Origin: Nitrososphaerales archaeon
GTDB lineage: Archaea; Thermoproteota; Nitrososphaeria; Nitrososphaerales; Gagatemarchaeaceae
Direction: 5' to 3'
DNA length: 64,000 bases
Assembly (NCBI GenBank): GCA_030038395.1
Contig: JASHOZ010000053.1
Location: 1-64,000 of the forward strand
Part shown: piece by piece, positions 25,322 to 33,669 of the stretch
How positions within the stretch are numbered: the first letter of the stretch is position 1
How the letters are laid out: each line of letters starts with the position of its first letter
Program-made: the position numbers and the translations under genes
Notes under the pieces: generated by a model
The model's database searches: none
Told to the model about the DNA's origin: nothing
The model's input: the letters and a program-made list of their open reading frames with translations, nothing else

Positions 25322-26236
25322 TTGAAGGTCTGCACCTTCACGCTGAAGGGGTCGGTCGGTGTCCCGCCGAGGGTGGGCATAGTCGAAGGCAGTGAAGTGC
25401 TAGAGGTGCATCTGGAGGCGACGATGCTGGACCTCCTCAGGTCTCGAGACAGCGACCGCTGGTCGCGGCGGACGGGCGCGACATACGGGCTTGACCAGGT
25501 CTTGATGCGTGCGCCGGTCCCTCGCCCAGGGAAGATCGTCGCGGCCATAGTGAATACCAGAGCCATGCTTGGAGGCGACGACGTGGTCCTGACGCGGCCT
25601 AGAGTCGACATGAAGGCGCCCAGCGCGGTGATAGGTCCGGGGGAGACGATCCTCTCGCCAAAGTCGGGGATAAGGCCCGAGGTCGAGTTGGCGGCTGTGG
25701 TCGGAAGGACGATTCACAGGGCCTCGCCTGAAGACGCCCAGAAAGGCATCTTCGGGTACACCATCCTGAACGACGTGACTGCGCCGAGCGACTCGCGAGA
25801 AGACGCTTACGACGCCTACAGAAGGGACCCAAGGACGGGAAAGCTCGCGAAGAAGACTCTTCGGGGTCCGTTGTTCCGTTCCAAGAACCACGATACGTTC
25901 TGCCCACTCGGCCCCTGGGTCGTGACGCCAGACGAGGCAGGGTCGTTGGAAGGACTCAGGATGACCACTAGGTTCGACGGGAGCCTGGTGCAAGAGGGCA
26001 GCACTTCCGAGTACATCTTCTCGCCCGCCAGCATCGCGTCTTACGTGTCGGGGTTCCTCACCCTCGAGCCTGGCGACCTGGTCTCATGCGGGAGCGTCGG
26101 ATGGGCTCCTGGAGTCCTCGGGGACCTGGACCCGACGGAGTTCGTCTTGCCTCCGCACGGCGGCGAGCTGGAGCTGGAGATCGGAGGGATAGGGGTCCTG
26201 AGGAACGAGGTTGCACATGAGGGGGATAGGAACTAG
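25322..26236 (+). CDS. Fumarylacetoacetate-hydrolase-family protein (HpaG-like isomerase/decarboxylase or hydrolase)
   Basis: A 304-residue FAH-fold protein with the metal-site pattern seen in the superfamily: a glutamate in RPEVELAAVVGR and an aspartate in GYTILNDVTAPSDSR, plus FRSKNHDTFCPLGPWV. The C-terminal LEPGDLVSCGSVGWAPG is a conserved FAH landmark. Single-domain relatives include 5-oxopent-3-ene-1,2,5-tricarboxylate decarboxylase/isomerase (HpaG) and 2-keto-4-pentenoate hydratase-like enzymes. With hpaB and hpaD immediately downstream, HpaG-type isomerisation/decarboxylation of the ring-cleavage acid is the best guess. Start TTG 25322 fits the shared box. Confidence 0.88.
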   Translation: MKVCTFTLKGSVGVPPRVGIVEGSEVLEVHLEATMLDLLRSRDSDRWSRRTGATYGLDQVLMRAPVPRPGKIVAAIVNTRAMLGGDDVVLTRPRVDMKAPSAVIGPGETILSPKSGIRPEVELAAVVGRTIHRASPEDAQKGIFGYTILNDVTAPSDSREDAYDAYRRDPRTGKLAKKTLRGPLFRSKNHDTFCPLGPWVVTPDEAGSLEGLRMTTRFDGSLVQEGSTSEYIFSPASIASYVSGFLTLEPGDLVSCGSVGWAPGVLGDLDPTEFVLPPHGGELELEIGGIGVLRNEVAHEGDRN

Positions 26237-26384
26237 TCGCCCGCGGCAGTGTTCTGTCACGAAGCCGGTCGGTTGCACGCGCGCCAAGCGAGTCAGGGAC
26301 AGAGTCGCGGCAGCTCGGAGAAAGCTAAAGTAGAGTCGGGCGGCGCGTTCACACGCGTGAAAGAACAGGAAGGAGGCGAGCCGA

Positions 26385-27836
26385 CTGGGAGCTAGGAGCG
26401 GCAGGGAGTTCATCGAGAAGCTTGACTCGACGCCACGCGAGCTCTGGTATGGCGCGGACAGAATCACGGGCTCGGTTTCCAGTCACAGGGCGTTCAAGAG
26501 CGTCGCGCGGTCAATAGCGAATCTGTACGACATGCAGGTGAGGGAGGACCTGTCGGAAGCCATGACATACACGTCACCCTCGTCGGGGAAGAGAGTCGGC
26601 ATGGCATTTCTCCAACCCAAGTCTCGCGACGACCTCGCCAAGCGAAGGATCATGATGAAGGCATGGGCAGACCACTCCGGGGGGATGCTAGGGAGGACCC
26701 CCGATTACCTCGACAGCTCTATCATGGCGATGGCGGCGGCAGCACCGTTCTTCGGGACCGGGGACCACGACTACGCTAGGAACATCCTGCGATACTACGA
26801 ATACGTGAGGGAGAACGACCTCCTCCTTACGCACACCCTAATCAACCCGCAGGCCAACCGAGCTACGGGGCCATCGAAGCAGGCCGACCCCTTCATCGCC
26901 GCCAGGGTCCTCTCCAAGAACAGCGAAGGCGTGGTCGTCAGGGGCGCGAGGATGCTCGCGACGCTCCCGATAGCGGACGAGATCCTGGTCTTTCCCTCGA
27001 CGGTCATCAGGTCCGGGCAGGACGACCTCCCCTACTCGATAGCATTCGCCCTTCCGGTGAGCGCGAAGGGTCTGAAATTCATCTGCAGAGAGTCATTCGC
27101 GGAGGAGTCGGCATTCGACCACCCACTAGCATCGCGGTATGATGAACAGGACGCGGTAGTGGTCTTCGACGACGTCCTCGTGCCGTGGGACCGCGTCTTT
27201 ATCCTGGAAGACCCCGAAAGGGCGAACCGCGTCAGCGAGCAGACTGGCGCCATCGTGTTCATGGCCCAGCAGGCGACGATCCGGGAGACCGCGAAGGCTG
27301 AGTTCGTAGCAGGGCTCGCCACACTGATAGCCGAGACAATCGGCGCCGACCAGTTCCCCCACGTTCAAGAGAAGATAGCCGACATCCTGTTGACCGTGGA
27401 GTCGATGAAGGCATTCCTAGCTGCGGCGGAGGCTGCCGCGAAGCCGAACGAGTGGGGCCTGATGACGCCCGACTACGTCCCGATAAACTCCGCGAGGAAC
27501 ATGTGGCCTCGTGTCGCGCCGAACCTCTCGGTGGTGATAAAGCAGATCGGCGCCAGCGGGCTCATGGCCATTCCCCCAGAAGGCGTGCTCAACTCGGGTG
27601 CGAGGGCGGACGTCGACAAATACTACCAGGCGAAACTCGCAGACTCGGAGGACAGGATACGACTCTTCAAGCTGGCGTGGGACGCGGCCGGAAGCTCCTT
27701 CGCCGGGAGGCAGGACCTCTACGAGCGGTTCTTCTTCGGCGACCCGGTCAGGATGGCGAGCGCCTACTACTCCTGGTACGACAAGGAGCCGTACAAGAGC
27801 CGGGTCAGGGAGATGCTGGGCCGCAAGGGGGAGTGA
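26385..27836 (+). CDS. hpaB: 4-Hydroxyphenylacetate 3-monooxygenase, oxygenase component; probable CTG start
   Basis: FADH2-using two-component flavin monooxygenase that hydroxylates 4-hydroxyphenylacetate to homoprotocatechuate with O2. Family landmarks: GRTPDYLDSSIMAMAA, LINPQANR, YDEQDAVVVFDDVLVPWDRVF and IGASGLMAIP. Homology continues upstream of the first ATG (26532): GARSGREFIEKL and HRAFKSVARSIANLYDMQ are the classic HpaB N-terminus. The first possible start there is CTG at 26385, with GGAGG 9 bases before it, giving 483 residues, the usual length. The protein lacks the four Fe-S/metal ligands of 4-hydroxybutyryl-CoA dehydratase, the other family member expected in this group of archaea; only one cysteine is visible. 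Confidence 0.9.
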   Translation: MGARSGREFIEKLDSTPRELWYGADRITGSVSSHRAFKSVARSIANLYDMQVREDLSEAMTYTSPSSGKRVGMAFLQPKSRDDLAKRRIMMKAWADHSGGMLGRTPDYLDSSIMAMAAAAPFFGTGDHDYARNILRYYEYVRENDLLLTHTLINPQANRATGPSKQADPFIAARVLSKNSEGVVVRGARMLATLPIADEILVFPSTVIRSGQDDLPYSIAFALPVSAKGLKFICRESFAEESAFDHPLASRYDEQDAVVVFDDVLVPWDRVFILEDPERANRVSEQTGAIVFMAQQATIRETAKAEFVAGLATLIAETIGADQFPHVQEKIADILLTVESMKAFLAAAEAAAKPNEWGLMTPDYVPINSARNMWPRVAPNLSVVIKQIGASGLMAIPPEGVLNSGARADVDKYYQAKLADSEDRIRLFKLAWDAAGSSFAGRQDLYERFFFGDPVRMASAYYSWYDKEPYKSRVREMLGRKGE

Positions 27837-28843
27837 GAGGAACGGCCCCCGACTTCAACATAGTGAAGGCGGGCCATGTGGAGTTCCTTGTCACTGACCT
27901 GTCGCGGGCGCGGCGCTTCTACGTCGACGCGCTCGGGTTCATCGTAACCTCCGAAGATGGCGGGCACATCTATCTGCGTGGGATGGAAGACAGGCACCAT
28001 CACTCCCTCGTCCTGACGAAGTCGCAGGCGCCGGGGGTAGGGCACTTTGCTTTCAGGGTCGCGGGCGAGGAGGACCTCAGCGCCCTGGCCAAGTTGGTCG
28101 AAAGCGCGGGGCTATACTCGAAGTGGCTGGCGCCAGGCGAGGAAGCCGGCCAAGGGCGTGCCCTCCTGGTGGAGGACGGGGCAGGGTTCCCCGTCGAGTT
28201 CTACGCCAAGATGGAGGCGAAAGATTGGGAGCTCCAGCGGTACGACAGGTACAGGGGGGCGAAGGTCATGCGCCTTGACCACTTCAACGTGATGCTCCCC
28301 GACGCCGCAGCGGCGTACAGGTGGTACACCGATTCGCTCGGCTTCGGGTGCACAGAGACGACCGAGACCGAGGGACCGATTCCTTCCCTCTGGGCCGCGT
28401 GGTTGAGGAGGAAGCATACGTGCCACGACATCGCGTTGACGACTGGGAAGGGGCCGAGGCTCCACCATGCGGGGTTCACCGTCCCCGATAGAGGCGCCAT
28501 ACTAGACGCCGCGGACGTGCTGGCCTCTTCCGGCTTCGTGAGTAGCATGGAACGCGGGCCCGGGAGGCACGGCGTGTCGAACGCTTTCTTCCTTTATCTG
28601 CGAGACCCTGACGGCAACAGGATCGAGCTCTACACCGGCGACTACATGAGCGCCGACCCCGACTGGACACCGATCAGGTGGAAGCTCAACGACCCGCAGC
28701 GTCAGACGCTCTGGGGCGCGAAGACCCCAGAGAGCTGGTTCAACGACGCGATGCTGGTCAGGTCCCCTCGCACAGGCGAGTTCCAGAAGGTCACATCGCC
28801 AACAGTGCAGGACAGGCCGGACTACCTGCTTTCCGCGCATTGA
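27833..28843 (+). CDS. hpaD: 3,4-Dihydroxyphenylacetate (homoprotocatechuate) 2,3-dioxygenase
   Basis: Extradiol ring-cleavage dioxygenase of the vicinal-oxygen-chelate fold, 336 residues. The N-terminal domain (GHVEFLVTDLSRARRFY) is non-catalytic. In the C-terminal domain the metal ligands are expected at the histidine of RLDHFNVML, the histidine of HHAGFTV and the glutamate of NRIELYTGDY. The tail NDPQRQTLWGAKTPESWF is specific to homoprotocatechuate dioxygenases. GTG 27833 overlaps the hpaB stop (GTGA), so the two are translationally coupled. Cleaves the catechol product of HpaB/HpaC. Confidence 0.92.
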   Translation: MRGTAPDFNIVKAGHVEFLVTDLSRARRFYVDALGFIVTSEDGGHIYLRGMEDRHHHSLVLTKSQAPGVGHFAFRVAGEEDLSALAKLVESAGLYSKWLAPGEEAGQGRALLVEDGAGFPVEFYAKMEAKDWELQRYDRYRGAKVMRLDHFNVMLPDAAAAYRWYTDSLGFGCTETTETEGPIPSLWAAWLRRKHTCHDIALTTGKGPRLHHAGFTVPDRGAILDAADVLASSGFVSSMERGPGRHGVSNAFFLYLRDPDGNRIELYTGDYMSADPDWTPIRWKLNDPQRQTLWGAKTPESWFNDAMLVRSPRTGEFQKVTSPTVQDRPDYLLSAH

Positions 28844-28847
28844 AGCG

Positions 28848-29378
28848 TTACCAGACGATGTCTGACGGCGGGGCCGGGTGCTCCGCGGCCTCGGTTGTGG
28901 TGTACTGCTGCTCATAGTAGACGAGCGGCTTCTTGCTAGAGAGGAGCTCGGCGCGGATGACCTCGCCCAGGATGACGGAATGGTCGCCCCCATCGTAGGC
29001 ATGCCACGCCTTGCACTCTATGACCGCGCGGACGCCCTCGATGACCGGCGAACCGGAGACTCCGAGCGTGAACCGCACCCCTTCGAATCTGTCCTTCGCC
29101 GTCGTTCTGCCTGCGAACCTGTCGGAGACAGACCTCTGGTCATCTGCGAGGAAGTTCACAGCGAAGGCCTTCGCCTCGCGATATTGGTCGTGGAGAAGGG
29201 AGCCCTTCGCGATTGACACGAGGACGAGTGGGGGGGTCAGAGAGACGCTCGTGAACGAACTGACAGTAATGCCTCTGGGCTCATCGCCGTCCCTCGAAGT
29301 GACGACGGTTACGCCCTGTGGGTATACGCGCATCACGCGCTTCAGACCGTCCTGAACCGGCGCGCCTGGGGGATGCAC
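28848..29378 (-). CDS. hpaC: Flavin reductase (HpaC-like)
   Basis: A 176-residue flavin-reductase-like protein that reduces FAD or FMN with NAD(P)H for a partner monooxygenase. The FMN-binding signature is present: GVTVVTSRDGDEPRGITVSSF and SLTPPLVLVSI, then HSVILGEVI near the end. It lies five bases from hpaD in convergent orientation, so it is regulated separately from hpaB despite being its likely partner. It starts at GTG 29378; A/T patches at 29397-29402 and 29409-29415 could supply the promoter. Confidence 0.9.
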   Translation of the reverse strand: MHPPGAPVQDGLKRVMRVYPQGVTVVTSRDGDEPRGITVSSFTSVSLTPPLVLVSIAKGSLLHDQYREAKAFAVNFLADDQRSVSDRFAGRTTAKDRFEGVRFTLGVSGSPVIEGVRAVIECKAWHAYDGGDHSVILGEVIRAELLSSKKPLVYYEQQYTTTEAAEHPAPPSDIVW

Positions 29379-29438
29379 AGCTTCCGCCGGCTGTCGAAAT
29401 TTGGCCTGCTTATAGGATTGAACCGCCGGCAGGAGGGT

Positions 29439-30020
29439 GTGCGAGGGTCGGCCGGCGTGGTCGTAAGGAAGGCGAGGAAGTCCGAGTCCGGGCGGTTCCT
29501 TAGCCTGCTCGTCGAGCTCGCCAAGTATGAACGGCTCGAGCCCCCTTCCGCGAGCGCCCGAAAGAGGGTAGTCAGGGACATATTCGGCCGCAAGAGACTG
29601 AACCTGCTGGTTGCGGTGTCGGGCGGCGAAGTCGTCGGGTATGCGCTTTACTTCTTCACGTATTCCTCGTTCCTGGCCAGGCCGACGCTCTATCTTGAAG
29701 ACCTGTACGTCGAGAAAGGAAGTCGCGGGCTCGGGATTGGTTCGGCGCTGTTTGCTTCCTGCGCTTCGGCGGCCCGCCGAGCTGGATGTGGACGCATGGA
29801 GTGGGCGGTGCTTCGTTGGAACGCGCAGGCGATTGGCTTCTACGAGAAGCTGAGGGCCGACAGGCTGGACGAGTGGACGTACTATCGGCTCAACAGCAAC
29901 GGTATCCGCGACCTCGCGAGGGGCGCGAGGGCGGGGCCTCGTCAGGCTCGACCACAGGCGGGACGGCGCGACCAGGGAGCATCGGGCTCCCCACCCCGTG
30001 ACGCCGAGCCTGGCTATTAG
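29439..30020 (+). CDS. GNAT-family acetyltransferase (polyamine acetyltransferase-like)
   Basis: 193 residues if read from GTG 29439, about 27 bases downstream of a CTTATAGG box (29409-29416), the expected leaderless distance. The N-terminal earlier in-frame start overlaps the divergent hpaC and is not favoured. Motif A is DLYVEKGSRGLGIGSALF (R-G-x-G-I-G), followed by WAVLRWNAQAIGFYEKLRAD, which resembles spermidine/spermine N1-acetyltransferases. The C-terminal 35 residues are Arg/Gly-rich and low complexity. Substrate unproven. Confidence 0.78.
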   Translation: MRGSAGVVVRKARKSESGRFLSLLVELAKYERLEPPSASARKRVVRDIFGRKRLNLLVAVSGGEVVGYALYFFTYSSFLARPTLYLEDLYVEKGSRGLGIGSALFASCASAARRAGCGRMEWAVLRWNAQAIGFYEKLRADRLDEWTYYRLNSNGIRDLARGARAGPRQARPQAGRRDQGASGSPPRDAEPGY

Positions 30021-30058: not shown

Positions 30059-30931
30059 ATGTCCGCACGTAGAGCCGCGATTGCGGTGTTGACCCTATCT
30101 CTCATTCTGATTGGACCTGCATCACTGCTGGCCGCTGGAGCAAGCACGCCGAAGTCGCAGACCTACATCCAGCCGTCGGTGAGCGCTCGCCCGGGAGGGC
30201 CGGGTGGCGGGAGTCCTCCTCCGTCGAGGTTCGTGTGTCCCACGATAACAGGCGCGGACTCGTCCGTCTGCAGCACCAACTGGTCCGGATACGCGGTGAC
30301 AGCTAGCTCGGGGAGCGTGTCCGCGGTCTCGGGATCCTTTGTCGTCCCCACAGTCACGTGCTCGTCAAAGTCCACGACCTACGCCGCGGTCTGGGTTGGC
30401 ATTGACGGCTACAGCGACAGCACAGTCGAGCAGACTGGCATCCTGGCGGACTGCTCGGGCGGTGTCGCCAGCTACTCGGCATGGTACGAATTCTATCCGA
30501 ACCCGTCAGTCACAATCAGCAGTGTCACGGTGGCACCGGGTGACATGATAACTGCGAGCGTGACCTACAGCACCACGACCGGACAGTTCACTGACTCGAT
30601 AAGCAGCAGCGGCGGGGGAACCTATTCCACCTCCGCGGCCGTGTCGGGGGCGGAAAGGAGCTCAGCGGAGTGGATCGTCGAGAGGCCAGAGGTATGCTCG
30701 GGGCGGTCCTGCTCTCTGACGACTCTTTCTGACTTTGGGGTCACGAGCCTCGGTTACGACTACACTGGGGTGAGCGGGACAGGGTCGGCCACTATCTCAG
30801 GAGTCACCGGTACAATCAGCTCCTTCACGACCGCCGCCATAACGATGGTCAGCGGGAGCTCGGGACCCGTTCTATCCGAGCCCGGGTCGCTCTCGAGCGA
30901 CGGCACAAGTTTCCAGGTCACCTACGAATAG
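30059..30931 (+). CDS. Secreted G1-family (eqolisin, glutamic) peptidase
   Basis: About 290 residues with a Sec signal peptide (RRAAIAVLTLSLILIGPASLLAA) and a Pro/Gly-rich linker, then a beta-sandwich domain of the scytalidoglutamic peptidase family. Landmarks: NWSGYAVT, GSFVVPTV, AAVWVGIDG, VEQTGI (catalytic Gln), YEFYP and SSAEWIVERP (catalytic Glu). Cysteine pairs probably form disulfides outside the cell. G1 peptidases work at acid pH and are mainly known from fungi and some bacteria. TTATTAG at 30028-30034 is about 28 bases before the ATG. Confidence 0.88.
   Translation: MSARRAAIAVLTLSLILIGPASLLAAGASTPKSQTYIQPSVSARPGGPGGGSPPPSRFVCPTITGADSSVCSTNWSGYAVTASSGSVSAVSGSFVVPTVTCSSKSTTYAAVWVGIDGYSDSTVEQTGILADCSGGVASYSAWYEFYPNPSVTISSVTVAPGDMITASVTYSTTTGQFTDSISSSGGGTYSTSAAVSGAERSSAEWIVERPEVCSGRSCSLTTLSDFGVTSLGYDYTGVSGTGSATISGVTGTISSFTTAAITMVSGSSGPVLSEPGSLSSDGTSFQVTYE

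Positions 30932-31020: not shown

Positions 31021-33669
<2,649 letters not shown>

Follow-up and report, generated by a model that had tools for sequence, protein, structure and literature searches.

A predicted secreted glutamic (G1) peptidase encoded by a Nitrososphaerales archaeon

Described G1 peptidases and the archaeal gene

Peptidase_A4 (PF01828) is the Pfam name of MEROPS family G1, the eqolisins or glutamic peptidases. Among the closest described systems is scytalidoglutamic peptidase, or scytalidopepsin B (SGP; PDB 2ifw, 1s2b; MEROPS G1). The protein considered here shares with it the fold, the catalytic Gln and Glu, the conserved glycines and equivalents of W39, D43, E69 and P72, but the two are only 26% identical, and the positions of C101 and C132 are non-Cys in SGP. 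In prokaryotes, pepG1 of Alicyclobacillus is likewise described as a secreted G1 enzyme with the conserved dyad, and is likened here by that description (PMC3009609). The same source gives the PF01828 signature for G1 members, and places archaeal homologs of Caldivirga, Acidilobus and Picrophilus beside the bacterial members and apart from the fungi (Jensen et al., 2010). The present gene is from a different lineage, Nitrososphaerales. In acid soils, secreted peptidases of the same Pfam family, with the same inferred role, are described for Lutacidiplasmatales (Sheridan et al., 2022; PMC9287336). These, however, belong to the phylum Thermoplasmatota and form separate groups in our tree (loci L099 and L112 are from 'Ca. 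Lutacidiplasma silvani'). Neprosin, a prolyl endopeptidase also of the glutamic class (PDB 7zvb, 9qr8), has a related fold (Z 15), but is put in another family by MEROPS and is about 10% identical to our protein, at 3.7 A.

The earlier note on this DNA had taken a G1 enzyme in an archaeon as a hint of acquisition from another domain or of an ancient spread. Archaeal members have been in print since 2010 (PMC3009609; also PMC6154417 and PMC9287336), so that finding one in an archaeon is no surprise in itself. For Nitrososphaerota, no explicit report was found among the titles and abstract openings listed. The gene is a further member of a kind that fungi, bacteria and other acid-loving archaea are known to have. 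We consider it very probable that the gene, which lies at 30059-30931 of the window (the whole stretch of 64,000 nucleotides that was analysed), encodes an acid G1 endopeptidase that is exported by the Sec route and breaks down extracellular protein together with thermopsin, in a Nitrososphaerales archaeon in which amoA is undetected. The picture of the G1 family is unchanged by the finding. Non-ammonia-oxidising Nitrososphaerales would join those acid-adapted prokaryotes that have a secreted G1 peptidase, and the view that Nitrososphaerales without ammonia oxidation feed on extracellular protein gains support. The finding also provides candidate archaeal G1 enzymes for expression, in which a conserved Cys pair and the identity of the catalytic Glu are directly testable.

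Family membership, catalytic dyad and predicted structure

The reading frame begins with ATG and specifies 290 residues (Table 1). Peptidase_A4 is the single Pfam family in the product at E values up to 1, so the thermopsin (A5) profile is not matched; it covers residues 73-249 with a score of 112.2 bits, the curated cut-off being 22.3. No NCBIfam profile matches the protein. Among PDB sequences, phmmer finds aspergilloglutamic peptidase (AGP; E 2e-11) and SGP (E 1.7e-10). These matches lie far beyond chance and, together with a predicted structure that superposes on SGP, bear out the original assignment to G1, and the gene is a genuine and intact member of the family.

The catalytic residues were examined in an alignment of the window protein and 130 prokaryotic homolog domains (131 rows) with parts of the two fungal chains, SGP and AGP. 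Both are present, Q125 corresponding to SGP Q53 and E208 to SGP E136. The earlier note had placed the pair in the motifs VEQTG and SSAEWIVE. Its Gln was correct, and its second motif does hold the catalytic Glu. That motif, however, contains two glutamates, E204 and E208, and counting of chain residues puts the catalytic one at the last letter. The first, E204 (SGP E132), is conserved in 128 of the 131 rows, yet is non-catalytic. Q125 and E208 are 83 residues apart, as in SGP, whose precursor dyad is numbered Q107/E190 in a table of PMC3009609. Seven further residues, W112, G114, D116, G117, G127, E144 and P147, are common to the window protein and SGP, each being kept in at least 115 of the 131 rows. 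The glycines named as conserved in PMC6154417 (G8, G41, G44 and G55 in SGP numbers) align with G77, G114, G117 and G127.

An AlphaFold2 model, made from an input alignment of 48 sequences (the window protein and 47 loci), has a mean pLDDT of 87.4 and a pTM of 0.80, with values above 90 in 227 residues and low values before about residue 60. Foldseek ranks SGP first for the model (E 1.7e-12, TM 0.85 by target). By VIA-align, the SGP-inhibitor complex (2ifw_A) superposes at 1.8 A over 196 residues (Z 27.1), followed by AGP (Z 20.4) and then neprosin (Z about 15). As modelled, the protein has the eqolisin fold, a beta-sandwich of two seven-stranded sheets.

The N-terminus begins with MSARR, which provides an RR n-region, and the hydrophobic stretch that follows lies within the first 40 residues. 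The mean Kyte-Doolittle value of this 12-residue stretch is 2.92, whereas none of 35 control ORFs from the window exceeds 1.88, so the signal peptide that had been predicted holds on hydrophobicity. A hydrophobic N-terminal stretch of at least 1.8 is found in 119 of the 126 homolog ORFs in which 20 or more residues precede the domain. The pI is 9.3 for residues 28-70 and 4.05 for residues 51-290, the acidic mature domain, and charged residues make up 9.0% versus 24.9% (sd 2.7) in the 35 control ORFs. Hydrophobicity and pI fit a prepro acid enzyme, a fit rather than proof.

Two cysteines, C101 and C132, may form a disulfide. Taken singly, Cys is found at the first position in 107 and at the second in 108 of the 131 rows; in both fungal structures, SGP and AGP, the positions are non-Cys where aligned. 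Bacterial and archaeal members are described in PMC3009609 as without the conserved fungal cysteines. From the alignment, a C101-C132 disulfide of prokaryotic members can fairly be proposed.

Table 1. Features of the G1 gene and its two neighbours (window coordinates)
Feature	Position	Strand	Evidence
G1 (eqolisin / Peptidase_A4) glutamic peptidase gene, 290 aa	30059..30931	+	Pfam PF01828 2.9e-32; structure match 2ifw_A Z 27.1
Predicted signal peptide, about residues 1-27 (cleavage site approximate)	30059..30139	+	12-residue hydrophobic stretch, KD 2.92
Low-complexity basic pro-region, residues 28-65 (boundary approximate)	30140..30253	+	pI 9.3 (residues 28-70); mostly low pLDDT
Catalytic beta-sandwich domain, residues 66-290	30254..30928	+	pLDDT 92-99 per ten-residue block from residue 61; residues 71-290 aligned with SGP
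Cys101, one half of probable disulfide	30359..30361	+	C101 and C132 both Cys in 106/131 rows
Catalytic Gln125 codon	30431..30433	+	SGP Q53 / AGP Q24; Q in 130/131 prokaryotic rows
Cys132, other half of probable disulfide	30452..30454	+	C101 and C132 both Cys in 106/131 rows
Catalytic Glu208 codon	30680..30682	+	SGP E136 / AGP E110; E in 129/131 prokaryotic rows
GNAT-family acetyltransferase, upstream neighbour (context, not part of the enzyme)	29373..30020	+	Pfam PF00583 1.2e-18
Pyruvate, phosphate dikinase (PPDK), downstream neighbour (context)	31021..33669	+	TIGR01828 1221 bits, cut-off 843

Distribution and history of the gene

G1 genes are patchy among the relatives of the archaeon. PF01828 matches 21 of 61 relative genomes (E <= 1e-3) and 17 of the 31 genomes of the genus, the best score exceeding 60 bits in 12 of the latter. 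A second copy, unlike the first, lies on contig C67 of the archaeon's genome (95.8 bits, Pfam-confirmed). A third hit there (L003), at 16.2 bits, is below the cut-off and was dropped; Pfam shows no Peptidase_A4 in the piece of its ORF that was scanned. Matches are found in 22 of 300 genomes sampled evenly from the phylum and, at E <= 1e-6, in 5 of 297 Pseudomonadota. Of 208 confirmed stretches in named genomes, the best 80 were retained; they are from Nitrososphaerales/Thaumarchaeota, Thermoplasmata, Bathyarchaeota, Marsarchaeota, Acidobacteria and a few other bacteria, and many of their source records are, by title, from palsa or bog samples. Carriage on mobile elements was considered and set aside: phage records gave no G1 match, and plasmid records gave four partial matches, from Streptomyces plasmids. 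Three ORFs of 1006 residues with weak matches (L020, L022, L023) were left out of the strong G1s; L020, scanned in part, has no Pfam match at 0.01.

Several homologs are unusual in themselves. One (L018, G044:C134:1953-2426) is without both catalytic residues, and a thermopsin match (C134:2931-3812) is some 0.5 kb away from it. Six loci of acid-soil bacteria (L061, L063, L070, L072, L074 and L113) carry tandem G1 pairs; in L072 the second copy runs off the locus end, and in L113 the catalytic Glu is missing from one copy. The genome of L070 (G358), named 'Acidobacteriaceae bacterium palsa_246', came up in a sample of the Nevskia soli phylum, and its NCBI name may therefore be wrong. The G1 gene of a Marsarchaeota G2 genome (L057:3845-4696) is split by an in-frame TAG, which could mean that the gene is broken, that the sequence is in error there or that the stop is read through.

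For the family tree, 8 matches with fewer than 150 profile positions or less than 60 bits and 34 duplicate domain sequences were dropped, and removal of 23 rows at least 80% identical to a kept row reduced the set from 133 to 110 rows. The careful tree (76 rows, 221 columns) is further without 12 named long-branch loci and 23 thinned loci, L009 having been put back. In it the window protein joins that of JOPF187 (support 100/90), the closest among the rows compared at 79% identity, then JOPF212 (98/84) and then Centralia_MAG_53 (94/62). The next neighbours of this group (94/89) are archaeal, including Marsarchaeota and Acidilobaceae, and the fungi are outside on a long branch, beside another long row. 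Rows from Thermoplasmatota and Nitrososphaerota are mixed with bacterial ones, and 23 of the 73 inner forks are open; inter-phylum transfers are therefore likely somewhere, in a direction that cannot be read from the tree.

The surroundings of the gene give a local view of its history. PPDK is found in 24 of the 31 genomes of the genus, in 15 of them with a GNAT gene like that of the window upstream. GNAT lies directly before PPDK in 12 of these 15, and G1 stands between the two in the other three (the own genome, G000, and G004 and G026), whose PPDKs fall within one five-member clade (100/100). In spite of this common order, the junction G1s of G004 and G026 share about 48% identity with that of the window, and the AU test rejects one clade of them with the window group (p 0.006; L055, L068 and L093 included). 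A stricter four-row test gives p 0.0001, but it also breaks up the window's own group. The G1 of JOPF187, the closest of all, has neither GNAT nor PPDK within about 4 kb, and neither was seen in the stretches covered at L055, L068, L093, L096 and L124 (L068 is 3.2 kb long and starts inside its G1). Candidate readings are replacement of the junction G1 by one of another lineage, or an old tandem pair sorted differently, in place of vertical descent in the three genomes. However, G1 evolves fast, many forks of the tree are open, the tested groups were filled up after the tree had been inspected, and the arrangement is known from three genomes only. We give these readings somewhat less than an even chance. 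They concern history and are compatible with function as an acid peptidase. The broader proposal, that two G1 lineages hold the GNAT-PPDK spot in one genus by in-place exchange among soil acidophiles and that most prokaryotic G1s have a C101-C132 disulfide of their own, is more tentative still.

A functional link between G1 and PPDK was set aside, because most PPDK loci of the genus are without G1 and, by eye, a TATA-like stretch precedes each gene. In four genomes of the genus (G012, G005, G003 and G029; L188-L195) PPDK has an in-frame insert at residue 445/446 of the window PPDK; in the two loci that were scanned, the insert matches LAGLIDADG_3. The site is near the catalytic-histidine motif, and the insert is probably an intein. 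The window PPDK has no such insert.

Acquisition from another domain had also been suggested. The donors could be fungi or bacteria of acid soils, Acidobacteria among them. In the domain, identity to the window protein reaches 57% in G1s of such Acidobacteria, and the patchy presence of G1, in 17 of the 31 genus genomes, would fit. The AU test rejects the window group at 0.05 neither with the Acidobacteria core (p 0.0625) nor with the fungi (p 0.0875). Against this, the trees so constrained are 54 and 31 log-likelihood units worse, and the nearest rows are from Nitrososphaerales and then from other archaea. At the level that the data resolve, acquisition from another domain is thus unsupported, and we regard it as unlikely. 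The family tree proposed as a check places archaeal rows nearest the window protein.

Proposed function and the organism

The analysis directly supports the family and the predicted fold, where the dyad lies, the hydrophobic N-terminus, the archaeal nature of the contig and the lack of detectable amoA. The preproprotein would leave the cell by the Sec route, its basic pro-region holding the enzyme inactive or aiding its folding until low pH led to removal of that region. By analogy with the family, Q125 and E208 would then activate a water molecule for attack on the peptide bond. The archaeon may use G1 and thermopsin, another acid peptidase (family A5) encoded in its genome (G000:C44), on extracellular protein for carbon and nitrogen. 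It is from the family, the acidic and charge-poor domain and the thermopsin of the same genome that we infer acid activity and protein scavenging.

A G1-fold protein could instead have lost its peptidase activity, or use the fold for something else, for example to bind glycans or cell-wall material. Non-catalytic homologs do occur (L018 and one copy of L113), and lectins and glucanases resemble the model at lower Z. However, the window protein retains both catalytic residues and the conserved positions around them, and its match to a true eqolisin is far above that to lectins (Z 27 versus about 8-12). We consider such a loss or change of task very unlikely, and the peptidase reading is retained.

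The own genome is a 1.49-Mb draft in 69 contigs, 90.7% complete. Its lineage may be that of the Gagatemarchaeaceae of acid soils (PMC10640624). That its contig is a bacterial contaminant, for which the fragmented draft and the similar G1s of soil bacteria might speak, is hardly credible, given TFIIB and an archaeal-type CCA-adding enzyme encoded within the same 64 kb, the GNAT-G1-PPDK order in two other genomes of the genus (G004 being a single contig) and an estimated contamination of only 0.85%. The contig is archaeal, and with the hydrophobic N-terminus its markers uphold the earlier description of an archaeal protein that is, by prediction, secreted.

A search for amoA found it in none of the 37 genomes of the family and in 8 of the 61 relatives as a whole, and the own draft genome showed no S53 pro-domain; neither absence is proof, because the genome is an incomplete draft. 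Passages of PMC10640624 name S53 and A05 peptidases but not G1. Near the G1 gene, at 25322-29378, the window encodes HpaB (4-hydroxyphenylacetate 3-monooxygenase; 561 bits, cut-off 480), a flavin reductase and a fumarylacetoacetate-hydrolase-type enzyme, genes that suggest breakdown of aromatic compounds.
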